Source of the DNA: a virus
Length of the DNA: 34,033 nucleotides
Strand: one strand, 5' to 3'
IMG/VR virus record: IMGVR_UViG_3300044695_003707
Location: 1-34,033 of that record
Made by a program: the position numbers and the translations under genes. The notes beneath the pieces were generated by a model, which searched no databases, had not been told where the DNA came from, and saw only the letters and a list, made by a program, of their open reading frames with translations. Positions 1,011 through 27,500 of this stretch are shown here, piece after piece; the stretch's first letter is position 1; every line of letters starts with the position of its first letter.

Positions 1011-2201
1011 TTAACCAACTTTTAATAGGATGATATCTTCATTGATTCTACCATTCAGTTTAGTGTCGGTAGCATTGATATCTTCAAGGAATTTTCTAAG
1101 AGCTATTTTTCCAGCTGATTTAAACTCTTTTAGCTTATCTTCTGGTTTTCTAATGGTTTTTTGAACACTTTTATGCTCATCATAACCAATAATGGTAGTT
1201 CCTTTAATACCAAGTGGCCCAGTCATATCATCTGCAATGTATTTTCCAAGCTTTCTTGTTTTGGTATTATAAGTCCATAATTCTTTTGAACCTAATATAT
1301 CAGTCGGATTGACTGATACTAGTTTTAATGGTTCGAATGTCTTCAAGAATTTCAGTTTTTCTACTATTTTATCTTTAGGAATAGCTTTTTTAGCTCTTGG
1401 TTTACGTAAAACCTTAGCTTCTTCCATTAACATAGTGCAAGCAGAGTCAATTTCCTTATAAAATGCCAATAAATTGTTTATTTGCTTCTTATTTCGATGC
1501 TTATACCCTTCTTTAAGGTCTTCATCCTTGCCTTCGATTACTTCTGATAGTTCTTTTAATCCGAATGAGTAATAATCTTTAATAACACGAGCATGAGCTG
1601 CTTTTACTTCTTTACCTTTTAATAAATTAAGAATCTTGAACTGCTTTGGGTCGAATTTTTCAGGGGTTTCCATCCAAACTTCGATTGCATCTTCAATTTC
1701 TTCAGTCATTTTAAAAGTTGCTTCTCGAACACGCTCCTGTATACTAACAACTGGTGTATTTGGTTTAGTATCTGCATCATCTTCTTGTTCGATGTCATTT
1801 TTACTATCATCAATTACTTTATTAATAGCATTAATTAGCCATTCTTTAGTATTTGTACCCTTATTAAAATCATCACGTTGTTCTGGCATACCACGGGATA
1901 AACAACTGGCAATTGCACCCATTGTTGTACTAACGCGCCAATCTTTGGATTTCTTAAAGTCTGTAATAACACTTTTTTCATAGCCGTTTTCAGTCATCCA
2001 GGTCAACACGGCTGGTTTCAGGTCTTTACCGCTGAATTGTATGTTATAATAATGCATGGCATTATGATAATGCTTCAAGAATTCAGTTGCAGATAATGAT
2101 TCAGTATCATCCCAACGTGGACTCCAATCTTTATTACGATTTTCACGTATAGTGACGCTAGTAATCTTAGCTTTTTTTGTTTTTTTAGCTATTTTTGCCA
2201 T
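1011..2201 (-). CDS. phage protein of unknown function, lysine-rich N-terminus
   Basis: 396 aa with no motif I recognise. The first 15 residues are very basic (MAKIAKKTKKAKIT). There is an acidic linker near residues 137-147 (NDIEQEDDADTK), and the rest is highly charged and predicted mostly helical. The basic tail suggests nucleic acid contact, which is inference only. The Cys-rich protein at 2213-2398 and the 280-aa protein at 2389-3231 lie directly upstream on the same strand, so the three probably share the promoter at 3261-3289. Confidence 0.75.
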   Translation of the reverse strand: MAKIAKKTKKAKITSVTIRENRNKDWSPRWDDTESLSATEFLKHYHNAMHYYNIQFSGKDLKPAVLTWMTENGYEKSVITDFKKSKDWRVSTTMGAIASCLSRGMPEQRDDFNKGTNTKEWLINAINKVIDDSKNDIEQEDDADTKPNTPVVSIQERVREATFKMTEEIEDAIEVWMETPEKFDPKQFKILNLLKGKEVKAAHARVIKDYYSFGLKELSEVIEGKDEDLKEGYKHRNKKQINNLLAFYKEIDSACTMLMEEAKVLRKPRAKKAIPKDKIVEKLKFLKTFEPLKLVSVNPTDILGSKELWTYNTKTRKLGKYIADDMTGPLGIKGTTIIGYDEHKSVQKTIRKPEDKLKEFKSAGKIALRKFLEDINATDTKLNGRINEDIILLKVG

Positions 2202-2212: not shown

Positions 2213-2398
2213 TTATGGTGTGGGATAGATTACTTGGCTAGGTTTTTCAGGTCTATCTGGACAATACAAGCAGTCTGGATCATTGCATTTTTCTTCTAAC
2301 CATTTATTACATAACTCACAGTAGTAAGCATCATGTCTTAGACAATAACTACGCTCACTACCACAAGTACAAAAGTTTTTAGACGGTTTTACGTCCAT
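2213..2398 (-). CDS. small Cys-rich zinc-binding protein
   Basis: 61 aa with CTCGS, CxLRHDAYYCELC and CNDPDCLYC clusters: nine cysteines plus histidine, enough for two zinc sites of zinc-ribbon type. It ends PSQVIYPTP. The start overlaps the end of the upstream gene by about 10 nt, which suggests translational coupling. Function unknown; such phage miniproteins often bind host proteins or nucleic acid (inference). Confidence 0.75.
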   Translation of the reverse strand: MDVKPSKNFCTCGSERSYCLRHDAYYCELCNKWLEEKCNDPDCLYCPDRPEKPSQVIYPTP

Positions 2399-3231
2399 AG
2401 TGATTTTCTAACCTTAGTTAATCTAATAAGCATATCTTCTTCTTCTTGTTCATATTGAGCTTCAATATCACTCAATCTTACATGAGTAGCAGAACGTTCT
2501 GCTCGTTCTTCAGGTGTTTCATCTTCATAGTCAAATAACGACATAATATCATCACTGCCATTTCTTTTTTTATTGCAGATTTCAGACCAACCACTTACAT
2601 CATATGGATCAGGACGATTTGGATACACTTCTTTCCACCATGTATACAATTCTTTAATTTCCATAGCAGCTAGTGCTTGAGGTGTTGGTTGTCCATATTC
2701 TGGATCATTTTTATCACACCATTCTTCATTAGTTAATTTTGAAGCCCAGTCTAAATAATCTAAACCAGCTTCCGGACAGCGCCAAGTTCTCCATCTAAAG
2801 AAATTAGTTCTCCACCAAGGAACGCAATACATATCACGTTTTTCTTTATCCCACATAACATTATGCCATGCTTGTTCAACCTCGACAAAATTTACAAGTT
2901 CATTGAACAAACATGGTAAGAAACGATAACCAACATCTTGCCAGTTTCCTGGCTTAATGTCATTAGGATGAGCAGTTAATGCATGGCTTTTGACCACCCA
3001 ACGATTATTGATGTAATAACGGAACGATTGGAACGTGTTATATGGCAGGTAAACAAAGTCCTGAAGTTTACCTAAACCGGTTTCTGCAATCCAATATCTA
3101 ACAGGATGTAGTTTCTTTGCTTCTTGTTTCCATAATCGCCATTCACGAGCAGTAGCGAATTCAGGTTTTTTACTACCTGAAATCCATTTTGCTATTTTCG
3201 AATTTGACCAATAAGTTGAGTGTTGTGCCAT
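2389..3231 (-). CDS. Trp-rich phage protein of unknown function
   Basis: 280 aa, exceptionally rich in Trp and Tyr (WWRTNFFRWRTWR near the middle, YTWWKEVYPNRPDPYD later). The C-terminus is acidic and probably coiled (YEDETPEERAERSA, EAQYEQEEEDM). I do not recognise a fold. The gene starts 30 nt downstream of a consensus sigma70 promoter at 3261-3289, with AAAGAGG as ribosome binding site, and is the first gene of the leftward unit 3231 to 1011. Confidence 0.75.
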   Translation of the reverse strand: MAQHSTYWSNSKIAKWISGSKKPEFATAREWRLWKQEAKKLHPVRYWIAETGLGKLQDFVYLPYNTFQSFRYYINNRWVVKSHALTAHPNDIKPGNWQDVGYRFLPCLFNELVNFVEVEQAWHNVMWDKEKRDMYCVPWWRTNFFRWRTWRCPEAGLDYLDWASKLTNEEWCDKNDPEYGQPTPQALAAMEIKELYTWWKEVYPNRPDPYDVSGWSEICNKKRNGSDDIMSLFDYEDETPEERAERSATHVRLSDIEAQYEQEEEDMLIRLTKVRKSLWT

Positions 3232-3365: not shown

Positions 3366-4202
3366 ATGAATATTTATCAATCAATACCAGCATATGTGTA
3401 TAAAATCACTTGCAATCCAACTGGGCAATTTTACTACGGATACCGTGAAAGAAATATAACGAATCATAAATACCCACACGAGGACCTATGGGTTGAATAT
3501 TTTACAAGTAGCAAGTTAATCAGCGACTTATTAAGCCAATATGGAAAGGATAAATTCACTACTGAAATTATTTTTACTAGTACGAATAGATTGGATGCAT
3601 ATTGGATGGAACAATCCTATATTCAACAGCATTGGACCAACGCATTATTATTAAACAAACATTTTATCGACCCAGTATCTAAACGCAAGGCATTTAGAGC
3701 AACAAAGGAAACTGCTGCAAAAGCAACATTAACTAAACGTTTACGGGGTACGGATAAACTTGGTGGTGCAAAAACACTAGAAACTTTGAAAAATTCCGGG
3801 AAATTACGTGATAGAGCATTGAAGTCTGCCTCAACAAAACGAAAGAATGGTACCGATAAATTATCAGTGGAAAAGTCTATAAAAACCAGAAAAGCTAACG
3901 GTAATGATAAAATCGGAACTGAAAAAATGGTTAGAACTAGAATTGAAACTGGTTCATATATCACTGGTGCTGCCAAAACAGCGGAATTAAGAAGGATTAG
4001 AGGAACCGATAAAATCGGAGCTGCAAAATCCGCTGATAAAAATAGTCATTTCTGGGAAGTTATAAATCCAGAAGGGATGTCATCAGTAATTAAAAATTTA
4101 AGTAAGTTCTGCCGCGATAACGATCTGCACGTAGCTGCCATGTGTAGAATAACAATATCTGGTAGATGCCATAAAGGATGGAAATGTAATAGAATACAAT
4201 GA
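3366..4202 (+). CDS. GIY-YIG homing endonuclease with C-terminal repeats
   Basis: 278 aa. The N-terminus AYVYKITCNPTGQFYYGYR is a GIY-YIG nuclease motif (VYK and YYG forms), with an Arg 11 residues after the YYG and a Glu near residue 85. Residues about 120-225 carry roughly five imperfect repeats of the type RGTDKLGxxK, which probably bind DNA in steps. The C-terminus (NLSKFCRDNDL, GWKC) matches the domain found at the end of many phage endonucleases. It stands opposite to its neighbours, has its own late promoter and terminator, and is likely free-standing mobile DNA. Confidence 0.85.
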   Translation: MNIYQSIPAYVYKITCNPTGQFYYGYRERNITNHKYPHEDLWVEYFTSSKLISDLLSQYGKDKFTTEIIFTSTNRLDAYWMEQSYIQQHWTNALLLNKHFIDPVSKRKAFRATKETAAKATLTKRLRGTDKLGGAKTLETLKNSGKLRDRALKSASTKRKNGTDKLSVEKSIKTRKANGNDKIGTEKMVRTRIETGSYITGAAKTAELRRIRGTDKIGAAKSADKNSHFWEVINPEGMSSVIKNLSKFCRDNDLHVAAMCRITISGRCHKGWKCNRIQ

Positions 4203-4785: not shown

Positions 4786-5142
4786 TTATTGTTGTTTCTC
4801 TTCATTAAACCAACGTAGTATAAACCACGTGGCATCTTCTGGTCGTTCAAACATCCATTGTTCACGATAGCCGTTAAAATTACCTTTTAAATTTTCTGAA
4901 CACCATGTTTTAATCACGTGTTCATTTAATGTCCTAGCTATTGGATATGGAAGTTTTATTTGTGTCCAATCTGGGAAAGCTGTTTTAAATACCTCCCAAA
5001 AGATTTCTCTATCCATTTCTTCTTGAATTTCTTTTGCAAGAGTTTCAGACATCAAATCTTGTACTGGATCAATAGTCCAAGAAGCTTTTAATTTTCTAGG
5101 TGTAGCGTTTATTGTTTTTGTTGTCATTTGAATTGTAGACAT
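4786..5142 (-). CDS. small phage protein with a capsid-like RKLKASWT segment
   Basis: 118 aa. The segment PRKLKASWTIDPVQDLMSE followed by LAKEIQEEMDREIF resembles a stretch of T4-type major capsid proteins (RKLKA.WT...QDL...EI..EI.REI). The C-terminal half (NEHVIKTWCSENLKG, then EDATWFILRWFNE) belongs to no family I know. It may be a small capsid-associated or decoy protein, but this is inference from a short match. It overlaps an upstream extension of the next gene and sits 16 nt from the L7/L12-like gene. Confidence 0.65.
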   Translation of the reverse strand: MSTIQMTTKTINATPRKLKASWTIDPVQDLMSETLAKEIQEEMDREIFWEVFKTAFPDWTQIKLPYPIARTLNEHVIKTWCSENLKGNFNGYREQWMFERPEDATWFILRWFNEEKQQ

Positions 5143-5158: not shown

Positions 5159-5554
5159 TTATTCTACTTTACCACCAAGTTCTCTTAACTTTTTAATAAA
5201 GTCCCTTCGGGTTCGATAATCGGATATAATAACAGTGCTTATGGTATATTCTGAATTATCAATTGCATCTTTCGAGTCTCTGAGACTATATCCAGTATAC
5301 TCTCGAACTAGTTTGATAGCTGAAATAACAGAACCATTAGTTCGAATATTCCCTATACTAAATTTCACTTCAGAAGCAGAAGAACCTTCGATCATTTTAA
5401 AAAATACTCGACCTTTTACTTCTTCACCAAGTGCAACATTCATTGCTTCCCAAACTTCCATTGCTTTATCAGCACCGTAATGTTTGGTTAAACTTCTAAC
5501 AAATATTACACCATCATTTACAACTTCTTCTAATGTATCGTTCATATTTTTCAC
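5159..5554 (-). CDS. ribosomal protein L7/L12 C-terminal-domain protein
   Basis: 131 aa. The last 55 residues match the bL12 C-terminal domain: SAIKLVREYTGYSLRDSKDA corresponds to KI.VIK.VRE.TGLGLKEAKD, and RRDFIKKLRELGGKVE to the final helix and strand. In ribosomes this domain recruits translation GTPases. The N-terminal half does not look like the L12 dimerisation domain, so this is a separate carrier of the GTPase-binding face. A GTG at 5554 overlaps the TGA of the upstream gene (GTGA); ATG at 5545 is the alternative start. bL12-like proteins are known in some phages. Confidence 0.75.
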   Translation of the reverse strand: MKNMNDTLEEVVNDGVIFVRSLTKHYGADKAMEVWEAMNVALGEEVKGRVFFKMIEGSSASEVKFSIGNIRTNGSVISAIKLVREYTGYSLRDSKDAIDNSEYTISTVIISDYRTRRDFIKKLRELGGKVE

Positions 5555-6442: not shown

Positions 6443-6471
6443 ATTATATCAAGTTGTTTAATAGATGTCAA
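6443..6471 (-). promoter_or_regulatory. sigma70-type promoter
   Basis: TTGACA (6471-6466), 17 nt, TATAAT (6448-6443) on the minus strand. The -35 box overlaps the stop codon of the 64-aa gene upstream. It drives the cluster 6415 to 5159 and probably beyond. Confidence 0.85.
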
Positions 6472-7844: not shown

Positions 7845-8606
7845 TTATGCTAAATCGTTTTTCAATAATTTAGCAATGGCTTGTACTTCTGTATTTACTA
7901 CACCCATTACTGCAAGTGCGGCCCATCCAAAGAATACGAACCCATAATGTAAAGGTGCAACAAATAATTCCTCCATAAACCAGAATGTGTGACCCCATTC
8001 GTTCAAGCCAACGTTTGGCAAGATCATGAAAGGACCGATAACCGCGATCAAATACATCAAATGTAAACCTTCTTGGTATGTAGGCAATCTTGTTTTTGCA
8101 TACATGAAAGAAGCTGTACCAGTGATGATATAGATTGGGTATGACAAGTAGAACTCGATGATGTGACTTGGAGTAAAGTCAGTATCACGAACGATAGTTT
8201 GGTGCCATGTACCGTCTTGCTCTGTGAAGTAAGAAGCACCCCAATAGATAGCCCATCCATAACAGACTAGCCAGGTCCAGTGAGTGAAGTGGCGGTGTAA
8301 TTCTTCTCTTGGAGCCAATGATTGGCCGGACATCATAGCACGATCTCTTGTTTTCCAAATGTATCCATTGATACCAGCAAATAATAATACCTCAGCTACG
8401 ATTTCAATGTACAACATGTTCATCCAGTATTTCTCAAATTCAGGTGCAAACGAGTCAAGACCAGCTGACCAGCCATAAACACCTTCGTACCAACGAATGA
8501 ATGAATAGAATACCAAATAGAGCATCATACCAGCCCATAGGTTTACTTTATTTAACAACGGTGCAGCAGATGCATCGCTTTTTACGTTTTCAGATATAGC
8601 AGCCAT
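7845..8606 (-). CDS. pmoC: particulate methane monooxygenase subunit C (PmoC)
   Basis: 253 aa, full length for PmoC. Five to six membrane helices are visible. D131, H135 and H148 lie in DGTWH...DFTPSH, with the D-x3-H-x12-H spacing of the conserved PmoC metal site. RLPTYQEGLHLMYLIAVIGP and NEWGHTFWFMEE are also typical of PmoC rather than the paralogous AmoC of nitrifiers, though the two are hard to separate by eye. PmoC is part of the membrane complex that oxidises methane to methanol. No pmoA or pmoB lies here, so the product probably enters host complexes. The gene has a consensus promoter, a structured leader and the strongest ribosome binding site nearby (AGGAGG), implying high expression. 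Confidence 0.95.
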   Translation of the reverse strand: MAAISENVKSDASAAPLLNKVNLWAGMMLYLVFYSFIRWYEGVYGWSAGLDSFAPEFEKYWMNMLYIEIVAEVLLFAGINGYIWKTRDRAMMSGQSLAPREELHRHFTHWTWLVCYGWAIYWGASYFTEQDGTWHQTIVRDTDFTPSHIIEFYLSYPIYIITGTASFMYAKTRLPTYQEGLHLMYLIAVIGPFMILPNVGLNEWGHTFWFMEELFVAPLHYGFVFFGWAALAVMGVVNTEVQAIAKLLKNDLA

Positions 8607-10246: not shown

Positions 10247-10867
10247 TTATACCCTCTTTGTAATAATTTCATCACACAAACCGTATTCAACTGCTTCTTG
10301 TGCAGATAAGAATGTGTCAAATTTCATTGTTTCAAACAATTCTTCATATGTCTTACCTGCGGTATTGTGATGTACATACAATTCTGTTAGTCTTTGATTT
10401 AAATACTTCGATTCGTTAAAATGTCTAGTGGCATCTTCGAATTGTAAATCTTGAACATGTACTGAACCTCTAGTACCAGGTGTGCCTGAGCTAACACGAT
10501 GGATCATTGTACGTGACTGAGGTAATGCAAATCGTTTACCTGGAGCACCGGCTTGTGCTAAGAATGAACCCATCGAACATGCTTGACCAATAATAATAGT
10601 CGATACATCCGGTTTAATGAATTGCATTGTATCGTAAATAGCTAGTCCAGCGGAAACACTACCACCTGGACTATTGATATAGAATTGAATATCGTCATTT
10701 CCTTGACTTTCTAGGAATAAGAATTGAGCAACAAGGATACTTGCTGAATGTTCATTCACATCTGTATCTAGCATTACGATACGATCTTTTAGTAAACGAC
10801 TGTAAATGTCATATGAACGTTCGCCACGTGCTTCTTGTTCTACGACCATAGGGATTAATGACGGCAT
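10247..10867 (-). CDS. clpP: ATP-dependent Clp protease proteolytic subunit
   Basis: 206 aa, full length. Catalytic Ser98 lies in [14 protein letters not shown], His123 in TMIHRVSSG, and the Asp in [33 protein letters not shown] is the oxyanion-loop region. As a subunit it needs a host ClpX or ClpA partner unless the phage supplies one elsewhere. It may redirect host proteolysis or process phage proteins. Own promoter at 10898-10926 and a CGAGGAAAT ribosome binding site. Confidence 0.95.
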
Positions 10868-14697: not shown

Positions 14698-15591
14698 TTA
14701 TTTTTCTAGAAAATTTCTAACCCATTGTAACCTATCTTGTTCATCTAATGCAGTAAATTCATCGATATTGGCCTGAATATGGGCAATAAGTGGATAATAC
14801 TCCTCATCAACTTTTTCTTTTACATTAGATGCCAACAATTTAGTGGTATTTGGGTTACGTGCTACAAATTTTTTCACCAAGTAATATGGTGATTTTATTT
14901 TAGCACTAATTCCATCACTTGTATAAAACACAAACCCTTCATGTTTTACACATTTTACGATTTTTAACAGTGTTCCAACAGTTAGTTGATGGAATTTTAC
15001 TTCGTGGCATTGAAACTGTTTTGATAACAAATACAATTCACCAGGTTCAACCATTATTTTACTGTTCCAGTAATTTTCACGATAACCCAAAAGGTGCATA
15101 CCAACTTCTTCTGGTATGATATGTGGATCATTTGGATGCACACATTCAAACATAAAGGTAAATCCCTTCCAGTTTTTACAAACTTCACGGTACACTTCAC
15201 GATCTATCAATTCCAATGCCATTTTTACATAGTCAGAATCAGTTGACCCAGTAGTTGATACCAAGATATCATCATTGTACCAAGTTATAGCAACCATAAA
15301 GCCATTAACTTTACGAAATGCTGATACTATGACAGAATCATCTAAAATTGGAGCACGTTTTTCGATACCATAGTTATAAATCTTAGTAAATGGACGTGAA
15401 ACAATGTTGTAATCGTCATCAACCAATGTTCCACGACATTCTTCTAAATATTCATTCCATAAGTTGTCATAAAAGACTTTTTTCTTGTATTTCAATACAT
15501 AAACTCCTGGATATGATGTTTCTTTACGTGAAACCAAATTTGGATTGTTTTCTACAAAGTGTTTTATATCTTGGTTAACTAAAAAAGTCAT
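14698..15591 (-). CDS. T4 Rnl1-type RNA ligase
   Basis: 297 aa from the ATG at 15591, which overlaps the stop of the upstream gene as TAATG; a GTG 9 nt earlier is less likely. EECRGTLVDD precedes the nucleotidyl lysine in RKVNGFM (K94), then FMFECVHP, HEGFVFY and AKIKSPYYL follow: motifs I, III, IV and V of covalent nucleotidyltransferases, closest to T4 RNA ligase 1. In T4 this enzyme rejoins tRNAs cut by anticodon nucleases. Here it may act on the unusual tRNA-like RNAs at 21003-33970 (inference). No polynucleotide kinase/phosphatase lies in the window. Confidence 0.88.
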   Translation of the reverse strand: MTFLVNQDIKHFVENNPNLVSRKETSYPGVYVLKYKKKVFYDNLWNEYLEECRGTLVDDDYNIVSRPFTKIYNYGIEKRAPILDDSVIVSAFRKVNGFMVAITWYNDDILVSTTGSTDSDYVKMALELIDREVYREVCKNWKGFTFMFECVHPNDPHIIPEEVGMHLLGYRENYWNSKIMVEPGELYLLSKQFQCHEVKFHQLTVGTLLKIVKCVKHEGFVFYTSDGISAKIKSPYYLVKKFVARNPNTTKLLASNVKEKVDEEYYPLIAHIQANIDEFTALDEQDRLQWVRNFLEK

Positions 15592-16142
15592 TATTTCCAC
15601 CCATGTAATCTAATTTCACCGGTTAATGCATCTTTTACGATATCATCTAATAATGATACCACGTTTCCAGTTGCATCGAACCCAACATCACGAACTCTAC
15701 AATGAGTCAATCCGCTAGGATTACCATGTAGATGACCGTGCAACATCACTGACCCCCTATGACATTGATTCCATTCTGAAATTGGATAATGCATCATACA
15801 AATTTTATGACCATTATGATTAATTTCAAGATATTTGTGAATAGCCTCAAAGCAATTACGAAATTCAGCATTTTCAACTAATTTATTATCATGGTTTCCT
15901 TCAATAAGGATTTTACGACCATTCAATCGTTGAATATATGCTGTTGCTTTTGATGGTTTACAGAATGCAACATCACCAAGGATATAAATTAAGTCATCTG
16001 GTGATACATTTTCATTCCATATCCTAACCATTTCTTCATTCATATGATTTGCATCATTGAATTTTCTGGTGTCAGGGTTAAATTTCAAAATATTAGCGTG
16101 ATCAAAATGTAGTCAAAGGTCTGACGTTATAAAAACTTTCAT
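15591..16142 (-). pseudogene. metallophosphoesterase with an in-frame UGA near its start
   Basis: The main open part (165 aa after the stop) has ILGDVAF, EGNHDNK, MMHYPIS and MLHGHLHGNP, motifs of a calcineurin-like phosphoesterase. With the strong ribosome binding site AAGGAGG the ATG at 16142 gives MKVFITSDL, then UGA (16115-16113), then LHFDHANILKFNPD in the same frame. The family motif is SDLHFDH (DxH), so 6 extra nt separate two Leu codons: CTT TGA CTA. Skipping them would restore the motif exactly. Either the gene is broken, the ribosome hops, or a lower-activity form starts inside. The HNH gene upstream overlaps its ATG by 1 nt. Confidence 0.7.
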
Positions 16143-17019: not shown

Positions 17020-17292
17020 CTACTCACTGTTTTTAATTTTATCAAACAGTTCTTGTTGTTCTTTTTTATATCTACGATACTGGCATTCTAACGTTTTGTA
17101 TACAATGAAATATAAAAACATACCAATTCCATATATAACAACAAATATTGCCAATGGGAAAGCATACTCATTAGGTAAGAAAGCTAATGACCATCCTATA
17201 ACCAGTACGATTATTGATAAAACTGTAATCCAGTTGGTATCTTTAAACAACCATTGTATAAAATACCATAGTTCTTTAATTTTGTGTTTCAT
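17020..17292 (-). CDS. two-helix membrane protein
   Basis: 90 aa from the ATG at 17292, which overlaps the TGA of the YqeY-like gene (ATGA); a TTG 12 nt upstream is less likely. MKHKIKELWYFIQWLF leads into TM1 (WITVLSIIVLVIGWSLAFL) and TM2 (PLAIFVVIYGIGMFLYFIVY), then a basic coiled tail (RRYKKEQQELFDKIKN). Function unknown. Confidence 0.75.
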   Translation of the reverse strand: MKHKIKELWYFIQWLFKDTNWITVLSIIVLVIGWSLAFLPNEYAFPLAIFVVIYGIGMFLYFIVYKTLECQYRRYKKEQQELFDKIKNSE

Positions 17293-17729
17293 TCTATTGC
17301 CCAAGATAAAATAAGGTTATCAACAACAGTAGCGGCTAATTTACCATCGTATTGCCCTGCATATTGTGCTTTTAATGCCTTTATTGCAGCTGGCTTACCA
17401 CCTTCTTGAACATGTGGAATAATAAATGCTTCAATTTCTGCAGCAGTTAATTGTTTTGGCATGTAAACTTCAAGAATGCCTTTTTCAGTTTGATATAATG
17501 AAATATCAATACCTTTAGCAGTACCAACCGTAATACATTTGTCTAAATTCTTATCGAATTTCTTAATAACTGCAGAAACTTCGGCATCAGTTGATTCGCG
17601 TTTCCCATCATTCAACCCAACATTGGCAGCTTCGCTATATAAAGTAGTTAATAGAGAAATTGCAGTTTTTGCAGTACCTTCTTTTCGTAAGGCAAATAAA
17701 TCAGTTTTAATTTTAGCTAGTAATGTCAT
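17289..17729 (-). CDS. YqeY/GatB-C-terminal-like protein
   Basis: 146 aa. MTLLAKIKTDLFALRKEGTA, then TLYSEAANVGLNDG, and MPKQLTAAEIEAFIIPHVQE with KALKAQYAGQYDGK fit the YqeY family, which shares its fold with the tRNA-binding tail domain of the amidotransferase subunit GatB. This may bind tRNA, which would suit a tRNA-rich phage, but the biochemical role of YqeY is unclear. Ribosome binding site AGAAGG. Confidence 0.85.
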   Translation of the reverse strand: MTLLAKIKTDLFALRKEGTAKTAISLLTTLYSEAANVGLNDGKRESTDAEVSAVIKKFDKNLDKCITVGTAKGIDISLYQTEKGILEVYMPKQLTAAEIEAFIIPHVQEGGKPAAIKALKAQYAGQYDGKLAATVVDNLILSWAIE

Positions 17730-21586: not shown

Positions 21587-22393
21587 ATGGCAACATTTTG
21601 TTCTTGCATCATATGCAAAAAAGAACTATCTATCAAGGGATTTCATTCCCATTTTATTCGTTTACATACTATTGATGGTAATATAGCTACCAAACAGTAT
21701 GCAGCATTATCGGTTAACAAAGTTAAACAAAACACGATTATAAAAAATAATACAGCCAGGATTAACTATGCAAATGATCCAACACATTGTAAAGAATGTG
21801 ATTGTTGTTTGCCATATAACAAACGATTTAATAATTTCTGCAACAGTTCGTGCTCTGCAAAATATAATAATCTAAAAAAAGATTATAATAAATTTAAACC
21901 AGGTCCTAAAAAAGTTATCACCGTTAAATCGAAACAACGTAAGGTAAAAGAAAAAAAAGTTATCGAAAATCAATTTACTAAAATATATCTTTGTAAATGT
22001 AAAATTTCCAATAAAGTTTGGTTCTCTCCAACTATTAAAACTATTCATCCATCTATAACTGATACCAGAAAACAATATGCATATCAATGCAGATTTACAT
22101 TTAGTATTTCTAAATATCCTCAGTGGTTTAACTATTCATCAAAGTTAATATTAACGTATGGGTGGTATAGTGCAGCAAATAAAGGGAATAATTTGTCTGG
22201 GTGTTCTAGAGATCATTTATTATCAGTATATGACGGTTTTATCAATAATATTGATCCAATACTTATAAGTCATCCCGCTAATTGTGAAATAGTACCACAT
22301 AAATTAAACCAATCTAAACATAAAAAATCTAAAATCTCACTCGATGAATTATTACTGAGGATAGAATTATTTGATAAGATGCATGAGAGCTGA
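21587..22393 (+). CDS. putative zinc-finger homing endonuclease
   Basis: 268 aa. Two zinc modules in the N-terminal part: CSCIICKKELSIKGFHSHFI with a later His, and CKECDCCLPYNKRFNNFC with CNSSC. A basic linker (KPGPKKVITVKSKQRKVKEK) follows. The C-terminal SRDHLLSVYDGFINNIDP then ISHPANCEIVPHKLNQSKHK has the spaced His and Asn of a degenerate HNH-type site. Plus orientation, AT-rich, no relatives nearby. Its stop codon lies within the 3' end of the tRNA-Cys gene on the other strand. Confidence 0.75.
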   Translation: MATFCSCIICKKELSIKGFHSHFIRLHTIDGNIATKQYAALSVNKVKQNTIIKNNTARINYANDPTHCKECDCCLPYNKRFNNFCNSSCSAKYNNLKKDYNKFKPGPKKVITVKSKQRKVKEKKVIENQFTKIYLCKCKISNKVWFSPTIKTIHPSITDTRKQYAYQCRFTFSISKYPQWFNYSSKLILTYGWYSAANKGNNLSGCSRDHLLSVYDGFINNIDPILISHPANCEIVPHKLNQSKHKKSKISLDELLLRIELFDKMHES

Positions 22394-22459
22394 ACAGGAG
22401 AATCGAACTCCTCTAACATGATTTTGCAGACCATTCCATTACCACTCTGGCAGTTCAGC
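22389..22459 (-). tRNA. tRNA-Cys(GCA) with extended acceptor stem
   Basis: GCTGAAC/GTTCAGC acceptor, loop CTGCAAA, T arm GGAG-TTCGATT-CTCC. There is no encoded CCA. The acceptor stem continues perfectly outward for 11 more bp (GATGCATGAGA with its complement at 22460-22470), giving an 18-bp stem. The 3' side of that stem is the end of the endonuclease gene on the plus strand. Confidence 0.85.
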
Positions 22460-22483
22460 TCTCATGCATCTCTTGTTTTATAC

Positions 22484-22568
22484 AGGTTAGCCATCTTCTT
22501 AGGGCTTTTCATGTCCCTGAACCGATGTCCGTTCTTAAGTGAAAAGTTTTGGATGCTGTAGCTAACCT
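22484..22568 (-). ncRNA. CSR6: CAGCA-stem RNA with possible pseudoknot
   Basis: Closing stem AGGTTAGC/GCTAACCT, TACAGCA, CCTG end. Inside, CTTTTCA/TGAAAAG forms a 7-bp stem enclosing GAAC-8 nt-GTTC, and AGGG in the enclosed part can pair with CCCT beyond it, making a pseudoknot. No clear T or D arm. It lies between groES and tRNA-Cys. Confidence 0.55.
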
Positions 22569-22575
22569 TAAATCT

Positions 22576-22863
22576 TTATTCTAAAATACCGAAGATTTCA
22601 GGTTCTCTTAGAACAATACATTCGATATCTTCAATTTTTACTTCAACACCTGCACCTTTTGGAAAGATAACAGTGTCGCCAACTTTTACAGTCATTTCAC
22701 GTACAATTCCATTATCTAGTTGCTTACCTTCACCAACTGCAATAACTTCACCTTCTGAAGTTTTTATACTTTTATCTTCTGGAATTACAATACCAAAAGA
22801 ATTAGTATTAATTACTTCTTTTTTCTTAACTACTACGCGATCATCTAATACGTGTGCTTTCAT
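22576..22863 (-). CDS. groES: co-chaperonin GroES (Cpn10)
   Basis: 95 aa, normal Cpn10 length. MKAHVLDDRVVVKKKEVINT holds the mobile-loop start (loop NTNSFGIVIPEDK), followed by EGEVIAVGEG, VKVGDTVIFPKGAGVEVK and ECIVLRE, all standard GroES motifs. It would cap host GroEL; T4 uses the unrelated gp31 to fold its capsid protein, so a capsid-folding role is likely (inference). It is 1 nt from the parvulin gene. Confidence 0.93.
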   Translation of the reverse strand: MKAHVLDDRVVVKKKEVINTNSFGIVIPEDKSIKTSEGEVIAVGEGKQLDNGIVREMTVKVGDTVIFPKGAGVEVKIEDIECIVLREPEIFGILE

Positions 22864-22864
22864 A

Positions 22865-23137
22865 TTAGGCAGTTCTATTAATTAGATGATAACCAAATTG
22901 TGTTTGCACTGGGTCACTTAGGCCGCCAACTGGCAATCCAAATGATACATCTTCAAATGGTTGAACCATCTGTCCACGACCAAATGAACCTAAACTTCCA
23001 CCATTCTGTCCACTTGGACATTTCGAGTGTTGTTGTGCTAACACACCAAAATCTGCACCTTCACTAATCTGTGTTGCCAATGACTGTGCTTCTTCTAAAG
23101 TTCCTACTAAAATATGTCTTGCTGATACTTGTGTCAT
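22865..23137 (-). CDS. parvulin-type peptidyl-prolyl isomerase
   Basis: 90 aa, a single parvulin domain: VSARHILVGTLEEAQSLATQ, then GADFGVLAQQHSKCPSGQNG and GSLGSFGRGQMVQPFEDVSF, ending TQFGYHLINRT. The ARHIL, FGRGQMV.PFE and GYHLI motifs are those of cytoplasmic PpiC. It speeds cis-trans proline isomerisation and pairs with GroES in a folding module. Confidence 0.93.
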   Translation of the reverse strand: MTQVSARHILVGTLEEAQSLATQISEGADFGVLAQQHSKCPSGQNGGSLGSFGRGQMVQPFEDVSFGLPVGGLSDPVQTQFGYHLINRTA

Positions 23138-23163
23138 AAATTCCTTTATTATTGAATTAAAAC

Positions 23164-23273
23164 AGGATACGTGTTTTTAGCCTGGCGCTCTCCCAACTGA
23201 GCTACATTTCTATTGAAATGGTAGGACTTGAACCTACGACATCTAGGGTATATAAACTTGCTGAATGTATCCT
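23164..23273 (-). ncRNA. CSR7: permuted tRNA-like RNA with closed acceptor
   Basis: AGGATAC/GTATCCT, ATTCAGCA, CCTG end. Inside in order: a T arm GTAGG-TTCAAGT-CCTAC, an acceptor-type stem CATTTC-AATA-GAAATG closed by four bases, then a D arm (AGCTCAGTTGGGAGAGC). CCAGG after the D arm can pair with CCTAG before the T arm (one mismatch), so the closing stem sits where the anticodon loop would be. Confidence 0.7.
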
Positions 23274-23284
23274 AAAAAATTAGC

Positions 23285-23382
23285 AGGGTCACTGTATTAT
23301 ACTGGCATACAACCATTATACTTCTAGACGGAATCGAACCGTTCCACCAGTTTGGCTTAATATAAAATGCTGAACTGACCCT
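23285..23382 (-). ncRNA. CSR8: permuted Gly-like tRNA RNA without acceptor stem
   Basis: AGGGTCA/TGACCCT, GTTCAGCA, CCTG end. GCCAA-ACTGG precedes the T arm (ACGG-TTCGATT-CCGT) and CCAGT follows the D arm (GTAT-AATGGT-TGTAT), so ACTGG/CCAGT is a perfect anticodon stem with GCC (Gly) on its 3' side. The acceptor is reduced to about 2 bp. Confidence 0.65.
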
Positions 23383-23387
23383 AAATT

Positions 23388-23462
23388 TGGAAGCGGGAGT
23401 TGGATTTGAACCAACGACCTCTGGGTTATGAGCCCAGCCATCTACCACTGATATACCCCGCG
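23388..23462 (-). tRNA. initiator-type tRNA-Met(CAU)
   Basis: Begins CGCGGGG with a C1-U72 mismatch and has three G-C pairs closing the anticodon loop (TGGG-CTCATAA-CCCA), both hallmarks of tRNA-fMet. T arm GTTGG-TTCAAAT-CCAAC; CCA encoded. First of two such genes. Confidence 0.9.
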
Positions 23463-23474
23463 ATAATTCTTGTT

Positions 23475-23544
23475 ATAACTGATACTATCGTAGATTTATA
23501 TGTGATCTATGATCGCTATTATTATATGTAATAGCATCAGTTAT
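23475..23544 (-). ncRNA. structured RNA between promoter and initiator tRNA
   Basis: A 9-bp closing stem ATAACTGAT/ATCAGTTAT encloses hairpins GCTATTA-7 nt-TAATAGC and TAGAT-9 nt-ATCTA, with GATC-ATA-GATC between. About 70 nt, tRNA-sized, but without T-loop or CCA. Function unknown. Confidence 0.6.
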
Positions 23545-23551
23545 TTTTAGT

Positions 23552-23580
23552 AGTATACTTGATAATATTATAGTTGTCAA
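23552..23580 (-). promoter_or_regulatory. sigma70-type promoter
   Basis: TTGACA (23580-23575), 17 nt, TATACT (23557-23552). It drives the structured RNA, the initiator tRNA and CSR8/CSR7, and perhaps the parvulin and groES genes. Confidence 0.8.
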
Positions 23581-23591
23581 GTATTTAAAAC

Positions 23592-23643
23592 AGGCTCATT
23601 TTTTCTTGTTTGCAATAAGATTATGATATGCTGAATTGAGCCT
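23592..23643 (-). ncRNA. CSR9: minimal CAGCA-stem RNA with Cys anticodon loop
   Basis: AGGCTCA/TGAGCCT, ATTCAGCA, CCTG end. TCTTA-TTGCAAA-CAAGA has a 7-nt loop with T33, GCA (Cys) and AA at 37-38; the last stem pair is A-C. No other tRNA part. Confidence 0.65.
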
Positions 23644-23649
23644 AAAATT

Positions 23650-23726
23650 TGGAGCGGTATACCGGGCTCGAACCGGTCTTATTCTAACTTGGAAGGATAG
23701 TGCCATACCTACTAGGCGAATACCGC
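23650..23726 (-). tRNA. tRNA-Gly(UCC)
   Basis: GCGGTAT/ATACCGC acceptor, loop CTTCCAA, T arm ACCGG-TTCGAGC-CCGGT, CCA encoded. The anticodon stem has one T-T mismatch. Confidence 0.88.
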
Positions 23727-23736
23727 AATGTTTAAC

Positions 23737-23789
23737 AGGATACGTTTTATTTCACCAATTGAAAGTTTTGTATTTGCTGAATGTATCCT
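23737..23789 (-). ncRNA. CSR10: minimal CAGCA-stem RNA
   Basis: AGGATAC/GTATCCT, ATTCAGCA, CCTG end. Inner hairpin TTTCA-ATTGG-TGAAA; if the last two pairs open, a 7-nt loop is possible, but without T33. Anticodon identity is unclear. Confidence 0.55.
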
Positions 23790-23795
23790 AAAACT

Positions 23796-23871
<76 letters not shown>

Positions 23872-23879
23872 ATTATTCT

Positions 23880-24020
23880 TTAAACTTTGTGTTTAGTGCC
23901 ACACACTGTACAAGTGGCGTTAACTTTTTTGAAATCAAGGTTCATTACTCGCATACCTTTTCCGTATGTTTTGTCTTGAAATTCATGATTACAATTGCAT
24001 TTCTTTACTTCTACAGCCAT
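23880..24020 (-). CDS. 46-aa zinc-ribbon protein
   Basis: MAVEVKKCNCNHEFQDKTYG then NATCTVCGTKHKV. CNC and CTVC form one zinc site. TAATG overlap with the upstream basic protein gene. Resembles small phage zinc ribbons of unknown role. Confidence 0.72.
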   Translation of the reverse strand: MAVEVKKCNCNHEFQDKTYGKGMRVMNLDFKKVNATCTVCGTKHKV

Positions 24021-24199
24021 TAGGCACCTCTTTTAATAAGAATGTTAATACGATTTTGATATTTACGTTTATCACGTGGTCTAACAGTTTTTTCAACTAG
24101 TTCTTGTAATTTAGCTAAACTAAAATTACCAATTCTAACTCTACCATTTTTAGTTTGATTAGGGTTAGCTTTTCTGTTTCCTTTACTAATAGTTGCCAT
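24020..24199 (-). CDS. 59-aa very basic protein
   Basis: MATISKGNRKANPNQTKNGR, VRIGNFSLAKLQELVEKT, VRPRDKRKYQNRINILIKRG. About a quarter Lys/Arg, like a small ribosomal or nucleic-acid-binding protein. Directly after the promoter at 24211-24239 with an AAGGA ribosome binding site. Confidence 0.72.
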   Translation of the reverse strand: MATISKGNRKANPNQTKNGRVRIGNFSLAKLQELVEKTVRPRDKRKYQNRINILIKRGA

Positions 24200-24210
24200 T
24201 TGATGTCCTT

Positions 24211-24239
24211 ATTATACTATTATTTATTATTGTTGTCAA
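24211..24239 (-). promoter_or_regulatory. sigma70-type promoter
   Basis: TTGACA (24239-24234), 17 nt, TATAAT (24216-24211). It drives the basic and zinc-ribbon protein genes and probably tRNA-Thr and its followers. Confidence 0.85.
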
Positions 24240-24259
24240 TATCTTTTTTAAAGAAGATT

Positions 24260-24583
24260 TTATAATCCGAGTATCTTTCGTTTTTGTTCTGAAGCAATGA
24301 ATAATGGAATACTATCAATAGTTTTAACATATTCTACATCATATAATGCATGTTTACAAACCTCTAGCAAGTCTTCCGGTTTACAGTAAAGTTGTACAGT
24401 ATGATATCTATTATAATCTTCTTCAAGAAGATCATCTGCCTTAGTTTGTTTCATATCAATAATACAATCAATGTCAGATAATCTGTCAATTGTGTCAGTA
24501 TCTAAATTAGTATACAGAAAAGTAATTTCATCGTTTTTTTCAATTTGTTCATTGAATATATGTTCTAATTCCGTTATATGCAT
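24260..24583 (-). CDS. small phage protein, unknown
   Basis: 107 aa from the ATG at 24583 (MHITELEHIFNEQIEKNDEI), chosen because GAGGG lies 5 nt upstream; an ATG at 24610 has no such site. Acidic alpha/beta protein with repeated hydrophobic strands (DEITFLYTNLD, HTVQLYCKPEDLLEV). Unknown. Confidence 0.68.
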   Translation of the reverse strand: MHITELEHIFNEQIEKNDEITFLYTNLDTDTIDRLSDIDCIIDMKQTKADDLLEEDYNRYHTVQLYCKPEDLLEVCKHALYDVEYVKTIDSIPLFIASEQKRKILGL

Positions 24584-24590
24584 CTTACCC

Positions 24591-24899
24591 TCATTCTTTA
24601 TTGTTGTCAAGTGTTTTTATATTTTCTTCGATAAATTTAATTGCTTCATCGACTGGTAATTCACCTACTTCCACATGAAATACATTTCTGTCTTGTGCAT
24701 GAGCACCATGTGAATTAAATGCTACTGTTGGCAATTCTTTATCAAATTTAGATACCAATCTTTCATCATTATATGTATCTAACACTTCTTCAACAACTTC
24801 CTTTTTCTTACTGAAAATTGCATCCCAATTATCACGATATGCATTGGATGTGCATTTAGTCTGGATTATATCACCAGTTACATCATTTCTTGTTGCCAT
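24591..24899 (-). CDS. small phage protein, unknown
   Basis: 102 aa, MATRNDVTGDIIQTKCTSNA; a YRDNWDAIFSKKK segment is typical of a phage family of unknown function. Ends 7 nt before the next start. Ribosome binding site AAAGGA. Confidence 0.7.
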   Translation of the reverse strand: MATRNDVTGDIIQTKCTSNAYRDNWDAIFSKKKEVVEEVLDTYNDERLVSKFDKELPTVAFNSHGAHAQDRNVFHVEVGELPVDEAIKFIEENIKTLDNNKE

Positions 24900-24909
24900 T
24901 GTATATCCT

Positions 24910-25089
24910 TTACATTTTTGTTGCCAATATAGTTTTGGCTAATTCTTTTGTTGCGATTAAATCATTCTGACTAAATGAACTTTTAATCTTTTCTGAAAAT
25001 TCAATTCTTTCTTCTATTGTCATTAATCTATAAATTATTTTTATCAATTCATAATCAAATTCAGTTGGTTCTTCTAAATTTTCAAACAT
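24910..25089 (-). CDS. 59-aa helical protein
   Basis: MFENLEEPTEFDYELIKIIY, RLMTIEERIEFSEKIKSSFS. All helical, acidic then basic. Leader contains TTTTAACACAC downstream of tRNA-Ala. Unknown. Confidence 0.65.
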   Translation of the reverse strand: MFENLEEPTEFDYELIKIIYRLMTIEERIEFSEKIKSSFSQNDLIATKELAKTILATKM

Positions 25090-25120
25090 AATAATTATCT
25101 AGTCAGTGTGTTAAAATTGG

Positions 25121-25192
25121 TGGAGCTATCCGGGTTCAAACCGGAGACTATGCCTTGCAAGGGCATTGTGTTATCAACTATACCATAGCCCC
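25121..25192 (-). tRNA. tRNA-Ala(UGC)
   Basis: GGGGCTA/TAGCTCC acceptor, anticodon arm ATGCC-CTTGCAA-GGCAT, T arm TCCGG-TTTGAAC-CCGGA, CCA encoded. Confidence 0.92.
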
Positions 25193-25201
25193 AATTTAAA
25201 T

Positions 25202-25230
25202 ATTATATCAGTTATTCTACATTGTGTCAA
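25202..25230 (-). promoter_or_regulatory. sigma70-type promoter of tRNA-Ala
   Basis: TTGACA (25230-25225), 17 nt, TATAAT (25207-25202), about 10 nt before the tRNA. Confidence 0.85.
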
Positions 25231-25256
25231 GAAAACTGATAAAAATTGATTTAAAA

Positions 25257-25345
25257 AGTATCTGCTCCATCTCCTGGAATCGAACCAGGCTCGAACGGTT
25301 TAACAGACCGACCGCACACCTTGTGCGTTAAATGGAGCAGATACT
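25257..25345 (-). tRNA. tRNA-Asn(GUU)-like RNA with extended acceptor stem
   Basis: A 14-bp perfect stem AGTATCTGCTCCAT replaces the 7-bp acceptor. Anticodon arm CGGT-CTGTTAA-ACCG gives GUU; T arm CCTGG-TTCGATT-CCAGG, then two extra bases. The D arm is a plain hairpin (CGCAC-AAG-GTGTGCG). No CCA. Confidence 0.75.
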
Positions 25346-25481
25346 TCTTGGATTTATTCGTTTTGTAGTTTAGTATCAAGAGTGAGTTGTACCAAGATAC
25401 CGATCATTCAAAATATTGTTATACAATATCTAAATCTCGCACCGCATGTTATTGTAAACTATCTTTTATTTATATTTTATC
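25346..25481. other. gap with hairpins, no gene seen
   Basis: No ORF or complete tRNA. ATATTGT-TAT-ACAATAT is a short hairpin near 25420. TCTTGG in the gap can pair with CCAAGA next to the Asn-tRNA stem, which might compete with it. Nothing else recognised. Confidence 0.5.
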
Positions 25482-25542
25482 AGGATGCCTTTAACATTTT
25501 CAATTTTTCAGATTGACGTTTAAAGTTTGCTGAATGCATCCT
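25482..25542 (-). ncRNA. CSR11: minimal CAGCA-stem RNA with Phe anticodon arm
   Basis: AGGATGC/GCATCCT, ATTCAGCA, CCTG end. TCAAT-CTGAAAA-ATTGA is a perfect 5-bp, 7-nt anticodon arm with T33 and GAA (Phe). CTTTAA and TTAAAG form a stem beneath it. No canonical tRNA-Phe occurs in the window. Confidence 0.7.
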
Positions 25543-25552
25543 AAAACTTTAC

Positions 25553-25637
25553 AGGATCTTTTTGGTGGATTTGAACCACCTAACTTACGATTACGAGTCG
25601 TTTGTATTTTCCAAAGGAAAGTTGCTGTAAAGATCCT
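25553..25637 (-). ncRNA. CSR12: CAGCA-stem RNA with Thr anticodon arm and T arm
   Basis: AGGATCT/AGATCCT, TTACAGCA, CCTG end. ACGA-CTCGTAA-TCGT (CGU, Thr) is followed by a normal T arm GGTGG-TTCAAAT-CCACC, then directly by the closing stem. Acceptor and D arm are absent, or the closing stem acts as acceptor. 10 nt from CSR11. Confidence 0.7.
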
Positions 25638-25643
25638 AAATTT

Positions 25644-25732
25644 TGGCGGAAGATGTGAGATTCGAACTCACGCAACCCTTTCGAGGTTGACGGTTTAGCA
25701 AACCGCTCCATTAACCACTCTGGCAACCTTCC
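25644..25732 (-). tRNA. tRNA-Ser(GCU)
   Basis: GGAAGGT acceptor, loop TTGCTAA, long variable arm (CAACC...GGTTG), T arm GTGAG-TTCGAAT-CTCAC, CCA encoded. Confidence 0.93.
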
Positions 25733-25740
25733 TATATTCA

Positions 25741-25825
25741 TGGTAGCCGAGGGCGGAGTCGAACCGCCACGCCCGAAAGCAAGGGATTTTAAATCCCTCA
25801 TGTACTACCAATTTCATCACTCGGC
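25741..25825 (-). tRNA. tRNA-Leu(UAA)
   Basis: GCCGAGT acceptor, AGGGA-TTTAAAA-TCCCT, long variable arm, T arm GGCGG-TTCGACT-CCGCC, CCA encoded. Confidence 0.93.
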
Positions 25826-25842
25826 CATTAATCATTTTTAGC

Positions 25843-25920
25843 AGGTTAGTTGCTTACCTAAAGCTAATCACGTATAGCGACCGGAATCGAACCGACTGTT
25901 TATTTTGCTGTAGCTAACCT
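25843..25920 (-). ncRNA. CSR13: permuted tRNA elbow RNA
   Basis: AGGTTAG/CTAACCT, CTACAGCA, CCTG end. T arm TCGG-TTCGATT-CCGG, 4-bp closed acceptor TCGC-TATAC-GTGA, then D arm GCTT-TAGGT-AAGC, which adjoins the closing stem. No anticodon arm: the closing stem takes its place. Confidence 0.68.
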
Positions 25921-25927
25921 AAAAACT

Positions 25928-26002
25928 TGGAGGCAGCGGGATGATTCGAACATCCGTCCTTTGGGTTATGAGCCCAACAATCTACCACTGATATACGCTG
26001 CG
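25928..26002 (-). tRNA. second initiator-type tRNA-Met(CAU)
   Basis: Starts CGCAGCG with a C1-C72 mismatch; TTGGG-CTCATAA-CCCAA keeps the three G-C pairs of tRNA-fMet. T arm GGATG-TTCGAAT-CATCC, CCA encoded. Acceptor sequence differs from the first copy. Confidence 0.88.
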
Positions 26003-26018
26003 TTAATTCTTTGTGTAT

Positions 26019-26046
26019 ATTATACACGATTTTTTAATCTTGTCAA
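26019..26046 (-). promoter_or_regulatory. sigma70-type promoter of the second initiator tRNA
   Basis: TTGACA (26046-26041), 16 nt, TATAAT (26024-26019). Confidence 0.85.
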
Positions 26047-26059
26047 GATTAATTTTAAC

Positions 26060-26180
26060 AGGATCCTTTTTTACGTTGCTTTACCAGACTAAGCTAATCC
26101 CAGGTAGTTTTTCGGGGATGTTGGATTCGAACCAACGATCTGCGGCTCCCAATGCAATTATTGAATGCTGAACGGATCCT
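26060..26180 (-). ncRNA. CSR14: permuted Pro-like tRNA RNA
   Basis: AGGATCC/GGATCCT, GTTCAGCA, CCTG end. In order: ATTGGGA (a Pro UGG-type loop, weakly stemmed), T arm GTTGG-TTCGAAT-CCAAC, closed acceptor ATCCC-12 nt-GGGAT, TA, D arm GCTTAGTCTGGTAAAGC. A nearly complete tRNA in permuted order. Confidence 0.7.
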
Positions 26181-26225
26181 AAAACTTTTAAAATTGTTAA
26201 AGAGCTTATTAACTAATATGTGTAC

Positions 26226-26253
26226 ATTATACATTAATTAAATTATATGTCAA
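26226..26253 (-). promoter_or_regulatory. sigma70-type promoter of CSR14
   Basis: TTGACA (26253-26248), 16 nt, TATAAT (26231-26226); the -35 box overlaps the end of the dioxygenase gene. Confidence 0.85.
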
Positions 26254-26693
26254 GTATAATTTGCTTCCCATCCATCTTTTTCAGTAAAAAATCTTACTGC
26301 CTTGATATTTGGATATTCACCAGCATCGAACCAATGTTTTACATTAGCAGGAACACTGATTAAATCATTTGGTCCCACATCAAGTTCATAAACAGTATCA
26401 GATACATTAAAAAAGAACCTTGCAGTACCATGAGTAAATAAACGCATTTCATAATCAGTATGATAATGCTCTTTTTTAAACTGCTCTCTTAATGATTGAT
26501 AGTTGTTAGTTGATCTATCCAATACAATAGTATCATTGTAAGGAACATCATAATCATATTTTATTTGTTCTATAATGTTCTCATCGGTTGGAACATGGAC
26601 ATATAATACATTAATATTATCTAATTGTCTAGCAATTTCTTCATATTCCATGTAAGTAGTAAAATCTTCTGTGTTATCATAAATTTTTAACAT
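26250..26693 (-). CDS. acireductone dioxygenase
   Basis: 147 aa from the ATG at 26693; the frame continues upstream only through tRNA-Trp. EHYHTDYEMRLFTHGTARFF holds the metal ligands H-x-H and E, and VPANVKHWFDAGEYP the fourth His; KAVRFFTEKDGW closes the cupin. About 30 residues shorter than usual at the N-terminus. The enzyme oxidises acireductone in methionine salvage. It is unusual in a phage. Weak ribosome binding site, leader with a GCACTA/TAGTGC hairpin. Confidence 0.88.
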   Translation of the reverse strand: MLKIYDNTEDFTTYMEYEEIARQLDNINVLYVHVPTDENIIEQIKYDYDVPYNDTIVLDRSTNNYQSLREQFKKEHYHTDYEMRLFTHGTARFFFNVSDTVYELDVGPNDLISVPANVKHWFDAGEYPNIKAVRFFTEKDGWEANYT

Positions 26694-26732
26694 AATACTA
26701 CTTATCTTTTGCACTATAATAGTGCTAAAATT

Positions 26733-26806
26733 TGGCAGCGCGGGAGGGATTTGAACCCCCAAGAATGGTTTTGGAGACCATCATGATACCATTTCATCAC
26801 CGGGCT
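26733..26806 (-). tRNA. tRNA-Trp(CCA)
   Basis: AGCCCGG/CCGCGCT acceptor with one C-C mismatch, ATGGT-CTCCAAA-ACCAT, T arm GGGGG-TTCAAAT-CCCTC, CCA encoded. Confidence 0.88.
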
Positions 26807-26816
26807 AAAAAATAAA

Positions 26817-26940
26817 TTCCAGGATAGTTTAATCTCTATGAAACCTCTATCTTCCTATTGAAAGTTATCTGGAACGGGCTAACTCACTCTTGTTTATTTT
26901 AATAGGTTAAGAGCTTAACCGCCACAAAGGGCTCCTATTG
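26817..26940 (-). ncRNA. two structured elements between tRNA-Ser and tRNA-Trp
   Basis: Upstream: AATAGG...CCTATT enclosing a perfect GGTTAAG-CT-CTTAACC hairpin (26901-26940). Downstream: TTCCAGATA...TATCCTGGAA with a bulged C (26817-26874). AGCCC occurs in both and at the start of tRNA-Trp. They lack the CAGCA motif; perhaps distant relatives of the CSR RNAs. Confidence 0.45.
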
Positions 26941-26942
26941 TT

Positions 26943-27034
26943 TGGCGGAAGCGGTGAGATTCGAACTCACGGAAGGTATTAACCTTCGTCTGATTTCAAG
27001 TCAGGTGCATTAAACCATGCTCTGCCACACTTCC
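26943..27034 (-). tRNA. tRNA-Ser(UGA)
   Basis: GGAAGTG/CGCTTCC acceptor, loop CTTGAAA, long variable arm (GAAGGTTAATACCTTC), T arm GTGAG-TTCGAAT-CTCAC, CCA encoded. Its 5' half is also the end of the HNH reading frame, whose TGA stop is the anticodon. Confidence 0.93.
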
Positions 27035-27376: not shown

Positions 27377-27405
27377 AGTGGTCTCCAAAATAAACTTTAT
27401 ATGTT

Positions 27406-27413
27406 TATTTATA
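27406..27413 (-). promoter_or_regulatory. T4-type late promoter of the HNH gene
   Basis: TATAAATA exactly, 1 nt after the hairpin of the partial tRNA and 30 nt before the ATG. Confidence 0.75.
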
Positions 27414-27414
27414 T

Positions 27415-27463
27415 GCATTAGTTTGAAATACTAATGCAATAGGCCATGCTCTGCCACACTTCC
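27415..27463 (-). pseudogene. 5' half of a tRNA (Ser-like start, Glu-type anticodon loop)
   Basis: GGAAGTGTGGCAGAGCATGG matches the first 20 nt of tRNA-Ser(UGA). The anticodon arm TTAGT-ATTTCAA-ACTAA carries TTC (Glu). T arm and acceptor 3' side are missing; the late promoter of the HNH gene follows. Confidence 0.7.
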
Positions 27464-27471
27464 ATAATTTG

Positions 27472-27494
27472 GAGGCAGGTCATAGACCTGCCTC
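27472..27494. other. 10-bp perfect hairpin
   Basis: GAGGCAGGTC-TAT-GACCTGCCTC between tRNA-Leu and the partial tRNA, without T-run. Possibly an RNA processing signal or a transcription pause. Confidence 0.6.
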
Positions 27495-27500
27495 AATGAT

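Follow-up and report, generated by a model that had tools for sequence, protein, structure and literature searches.

The protein encoded by a small minus-strand gene in this phage DNA (the window, meaning the whole stretch of 34,033 nt that was analysed) joins a C-terminal domain (CTD) homologous to that of ribosomal protein bL12, and predicted to share its fold, to a helical N-terminal domain of about 57 residues that is not recognised by sequence as the bL12 anchor, with a distant link still conceivable. It belongs to an already described kind, the phage bL12-domain proteins, and judging from the profile and pattern matches its two-domain architecture is a recurring phage family and not a one-off fusion. 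The explanation we favour is a translation-factor-binding phage protein, made early and acting as an adaptor or competitor off the bL10 stalk, and we regard the chances of this as evenly balanced. The gene and its parts are as follows.

5159-5554, minus strand: whole open reading frame, 131 aa from a GTG at 5554; reading frame kept in relatives
5384-5545, minus strand: N-terminal helical domain, residues 4-57; helices in the AlphaFold2 model, strongly conserved in the family
5162-5374, minus strand: bL12 C-terminal domain, residues 61-131; Pfam PF00542, predicted fold, and hhalign with host bL12
5255-5329, minus strand: CTD helices 4 and 5, residues 76-100, putative translation-factor-binding face; conservation by column

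The gene lies in a run of minus-strand genes, and its true start is probably the ATG at 5545, for a product of 128 aa, because the relative L003 has no in-frame GTG at the upstream position and the ATG is common to the relatives. The window, a virus record of 34 kb, is a fragment of a tRNA-rich pmoC-phage, with 21 tRNA genes (22387-33597, minus strand) and a complete gene for methane monooxygenase subunit C (pmoC; 7845-8606, minus strand, 409.9 bits), which is also carried by L003 at 94%. The window PmoC reaches 91% identity with those of Methylococcales and related genomes, which makes a methanotroph of the Gammaproteobacteria the probable host. PMC7674155 describes large pmoC-phages from fresh water, whose GC content is 32-44% and which carry as many as 29 tRNAs; the word L12 is absent from the main text of that paper.

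The CTD assignment was proposed in a sequence-only reading of this DNA, and it is borne out by several comparisons. Residues 77-131 match the Pfam Ribosomal_L12 family (PF00542) with an E-value of 6.8e-6, and as the score of 26.7 bits is just above the cut-off of 25.9, the assignment was checked by further methods. All nine members of alignment A2 match Ribosomal_L12 at E<=1, and the relative L131 scores 44 bits; the cut-off itself is passed by just two of seven close records. Among 18 records, which took in seven phages chosen for another gene (none of these matched), ten match at E<=0.1 and seven pass the cut-off, with no match in the family record G016. The A2 profile searched against the PDB gives 16 matches, 15 of them to bL12 chains (best E 8.4e-7), and profile-profile comparison (hhalign) with methanotroph bL12 gives a probability of 96.3% (E 1.5e-9) spanning the CTD only; a bL12 match was absent from one of six methanotroph genomes. 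The AlphaFold2 model of the window protein (pLDDT 86.1, pTM 0.60) has the helix-strand layout of bL12 on which the sequence-only reading had been staked, with strand 61-66, helices 76-87 and 91-100, strand 106-110, helix 113-125 and a short final strand at 129-130. In the PDB, bL12 structures or ribosome models fill the top seven rows of the Foldseek search, with no E-value under 0.001, and VIA-align gives Z scores of 8-9 to bL12 CTDs, nearly equalled by ClpS, which shares the fold. Because the fold is common to both, bL12 and ClpS are told apart by sequence: the model is 20-27% identical to bacterial bL12 chains and 4-12% identical to ClpS chains.

A profile search finds 17 IMG/VR loci encoding the two-domain protein, and all 14 contigs found by a pattern in the N-terminal domain also encode the CTD. 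Both domains are present in XYS97666.1 of the Sinorhizobium jumbo phage Phosso (469 kb), annotated as hypothetical, which was found by the N-terminal profile at E 7.5e-26 (with a profile that includes the Phosso row itself) and reached independently by tblastn from the locus L133 at E 1e-4. The Phosso protein differs from the window protein in its length of 173 aa, an insertion in the CTD and the retention of K65. The BFVD protein A0A6J7WGF4, of an uncultured Caudovirales phage, is near the window protein in length (132 aa) and matches it over 131 aligned columns with 31% identity (Foldseek E 2.4e-10); it is named 'Ribosomal protein L7/L12, C-terminal', with no function given, and is probably a family member already deposited under the L12 CTD name. 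It is from the 14 contigs, the 17 loci, Phosso and this 132-aa protein that we conclude that the family recurs.

The N-terminal profile matched no genome among 398 from the host phylum, a set without any genome known to match, which weakly supports a restriction of the domain to phages. A tblastn search of the phage collection with the N-terminal part of the window protein alone found nothing. Weak matches in N4-like phages of Salmonella and in a faecal contig involve the CTD motif, which in the faecal contig stands in an unrelated reading frame. Richness in tRNA genes was dropped as a mark of the family, since seven of seven phages without an N-terminal profile match have 5 to 37 tRNAs, while two family contigs (both fragments) have 0 and 1, and tRNA content is thus no pointer to the gene. 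We note that one phage contig with the family gene and 27 tRNAs (G014) also has a tmRNA-like gene predicted by ARAGORN (L178:12844-13399). In the alignments, the near-identical loci L001, L002, L004, L006 and L008 were omitted from A2, A3 and A5, and L009 was included in A1 and thereafter omitted; L134, which contains an undetermined residue, was omitted from A5 and from the 12-row table used below, and L138 (Phosso) was included in that table and omitted from the alignments used for structure prediction.

The sequence-only reading had also described the N-terminal half as unlike the L12 ribosome anchor, and the sequence comparisons agree: it has no Pfam match and, scanned alone, no PHROG match, and hhalign with host bL12 N-termini gives a probability of 1.1%. 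Foldseek with the N-terminal domain alone finds no PDB match at E under 2. The full AlphaFold2 model places three helices here (residues 4-26, 28-42 and 44-56), in disagreement with a second prediction that has two. There is no counterpart to the Ala-rich stretch that host bL12 proteins carry at the hinge site, and about four residues separate the last N-terminal helix, ending at 56, from the first CTD strand at 61 in the AlphaFold2 model. Both halves evolve with dN/dS below 1 in the near clade (0.10-0.18 for the N-terminal domain and 0.22-0.69 for the CTD), with the N-terminal value lower in all six pairs, and on these ratios the N-terminal domain is the more strongly constrained of the two within that clade.

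These features bear on a competing explanation that we consider unlikely, in which the helical domain derives from a bL12 N-terminus, has diverged far from it, dimerises on host bL10 and puts the phage CTD on host ribosomes as a replacement stalk. Weak full-length alignments to bL12 keep this explanation in consideration. NCBIfam TIGR00855 aligns residues 7-131 to positions 9-123 of the full-length L12 model, with a score of 23.7 bits that is far under the equivalog cut-off of 84.4. The top Foldseek match in the PDB is the full-length Thermotoga maritima L12 (136 columns, E 1.4e-3), VIA aligns 111 residues of the same protein with an rmsd of 7.4, and when the N-terminal domain is modelled alone, 43 residues can be aligned with the N-terminal part of that protein (Z 2.1). 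Phage and host proteins both have an acidic N-terminal half, and a Salmonella phage bL12 protein has been detected in ribosome fractions (PMC6375957), but the same source states that ribosomes with the tagged phage bL12 could not be purified. Also against a replacement stalk are the hhalign result with host bL12 N-termini and the lack of an Ala-rich hinge, which matters to bL12 activity: as reported in PMC4592705, when the bL12 linker is shortened the activity in translation resembles that of ribosomes depleted of L12. The stronger constraint on the N-terminal half, its dissimilarity to the anchor, the missing hinge and this linker-shortening result together incline us towards an action off the bL10 stalk.

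The residues that would contact translation factors are largely kept. The bL12 factor-binding positions, which we take to be 65, 66, 69, 70, 73, 80, 82 and 84 (E. coli numbering throughout), were compared in 12 family rows, and K70, L80 and K84 are present in all of them. I69 and R73 are each kept in 11 of the 12 (R73 is H in L007), and position 82 is E in seven, D in four and A in one. The exception is K65, which is constant in five of five host bL12 proteins and kept in one of the 12 family rows (Phosso). The sequence-only reading that the GTPase-recruiting face of bL12 is present thus stands for positions 69, 70, 73, 80 and 84, which are identical in the window protein, with conservative changes at 66 and 82, and fails at 65, which is V. 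Mean conservation is 0.82 at face positions and 0.46 in the remainder of the CTD (1e-4 in 20,000 random draws, a test that rests on the above list of positions and the 12 family rows), and the CTD was not itself selected for, because most rows were found by patterns within the N-terminal domain only. In these rows, then, the factor-binding face is the best-conserved part of the family CTD, K65 excepted, and this conservation speaks for the binding of translational GTPases; folding alone may call for part of the motif. The sequence-only reading went on to suggest recruitment of EF-Tu, EF-G or IF-2 to modified ribosomes or away from them; the protein may act in either direction, and we saw no sign of modified ribosomes. 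A literature search for K65 or Arg73 together with L12 found no paper. PMC6753160 describes binding of IF2, EF-Tu, EF-G and RF3 by the bL12 CTD through a conserved positive site on helices 4 and 5, to which the translational GTPases offer a complementary negative surface. The net charge of the CTD is +1 to +7 in all 12 phage rows and -2 to -3 in all five host rows, and the retained face and net positive charge are in keeping with a factor-binding domain, and perhaps with a strong competitor.

It is doubtful, in our judgement, that the L12-like fold is here a general-purpose protein-protein module whose partner, such as another phage protein, has no role in translation. This would fit the loss of K65, the faster evolution of the CTD relative to the N-terminal half, the varied architectures of phage bL12 domains (PMC6375957), and the recurrence of the motif in an unrelated reading frame of the faecal contig; against it, conservation within the CTD is highest at the positions of the factor-binding face. 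A ClpS-like adaptor for a phage-encoded Clp protease is very improbable, for although ClpS chains reach Z scores of 7-8.4 against the model and the window has a Clp protease gene (10247-10867, minus strand, 205 bits), Pfam gives no ClpS match at E up to 10, the identities given above are lower for ClpS than for bacterial bL12, and the helix motif is bL12-like.

Under the favoured explanation, a factor-binding protein acting off the stalk, the CTD face would bind at least one of the host's translational GTPases (EF-Tu, EF-G, IF2, RF3) and the helical domain would oligomerise the protein or tie it to a partner other than the bL10 stalk. Produced early from host sigma-70 promoters, the protein might then either compete with the host stalk for factors or pass them to phage-directed translation. 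We counted in favour of this explanation the CTD homology and fold, the conservation of the face, the charge, the co-occurrence of the domains, the dN/dS values below 1, the absence of a hinge, the N-terminal half unlike the anchor, the promoters and the neighbouring genes, and against it the loss of K65, the changes at 73 and 82, a possible role of the motif in folding alone, the faster-evolving CTD, the tRNA-rich phages without the family and the terminator-like sites described below. A broader and more speculative proposal, which we think improbable, is that large phages share an early, off-ribosome factor catcher, a charge-reversed bL12 CTD on a phage-specific helical domain, that draws EF-Tu, EF-G or IF2 off host stalks or concentrates phage-tRNA ternary complexes. 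If the domain does bind translational GTPases, phages would have taken the factor-recruiting part of the ribosome without the rest of it, and a 128-aa protein with a clear mutation test would offer a handle on the redirection of translation by large phages; if it does not, the bL12 CTD would be a general module and phage annotations of 'ribosomal protein L7/L12' would mislead.

Mizuno et al. (2019, PMC6375957) have already described phage proteins whose bL12 domains sit in foreign architectures, and L7/L12 has been noted in huge phages (PMC7162821). The window protein resembles those in its bL12 CTD, which is often in a non-ribosomal architecture there, and in its retained factor-contact residues, and departs from the available descriptions in its helical N-terminal domain, lost K65 and charge reversal. 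Compared with the bL12 proteins of Methylococcales, E. coli and T. maritima, it has a similar CTD sequence and fold and keeps most of the factor-binding face, and it differs in its N-terminal half, hinge, K65 and CTD net charge. A literature search, on the portions of text that it covered, returned no paper on this family of helical N-terminal domains, on the absence of the hinge, on the K65 loss or on the charge reversal.

The window contains 18 perfect sigma-70 sites (TTGACA-N15-18-TATAAT), all on the minus strand, with 0.12 expected, which is a remarkably regular series of promoters of host type, and two of these lie upstream of the gene.

6443-6471, minus strand: promoter-like site with a perfect match to the sigma-70 consensus (12/12 bases), 0.9 kb upstream of the gene; TG before the second hexamer, conserved in L003
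6691-6718, minus strand: promoter-like site with a perfect match to the sigma-70 consensus (12/12 bases), 1.2 kb upstream of the gene; conserved in L003

The corresponding upstream stretch has two perfect sites in each of L003 and L008 and one in L005, and in L134 such a site precedes the gene by 58 bases; no perfect site was found upstream in L132, L136 and L137, within the DNA examined. Early expression by the host polymerase is a reasonable inference from these sites, and the two terminator-like sites that lie between the window promoters and the gene argue against a simple operon.

The gene order in L131 is Clp protease, DNA ligase, the L12-domain gene, a MazG-like gene and a homologue of the 2389-3231 open reading frame, and the window retains this order with extra genes inserted. 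Translation-related genes in the window include a PTH2 peptidyl-tRNA hydrolase (28179-28712), a YqeY-like gene (17289-17729) and an RNA ligase (14698-15600). The 396-aa product of the open reading frame at 1011-2201 (minus strand) belongs to an uncharacterised phage family (phrog_11903) with homologues in 42 phage records. Its residues 200-242 include an L12-like stretch that scores 14.1 bits, below the cut-off of 25.9, and recurs in four of seven close records. This was considered as a second L12 domain and dropped as a chance or lineage-bound resemblance, because PF00542 finds no match in seven named phages with homologues of this gene. Adjoining the L12-domain gene is a 118-aa open reading frame (4786-5142, minus strand) that matches Pfam Gp23 (29.8 bits, cut-off 24.4); it resembles a stretch of about 60 residues in the major capsid protein of T4-type phages and is far too short for a capsid protein. 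Finally, a GIY-YIG (SegE-like) endonuclease is encoded at 3366-4202 on the plus strand, and its protein is 100% identical to that of L005 whereas neighbouring proteins are 74% and 96% identical, which points to recent horizontal spread of a homing gene.
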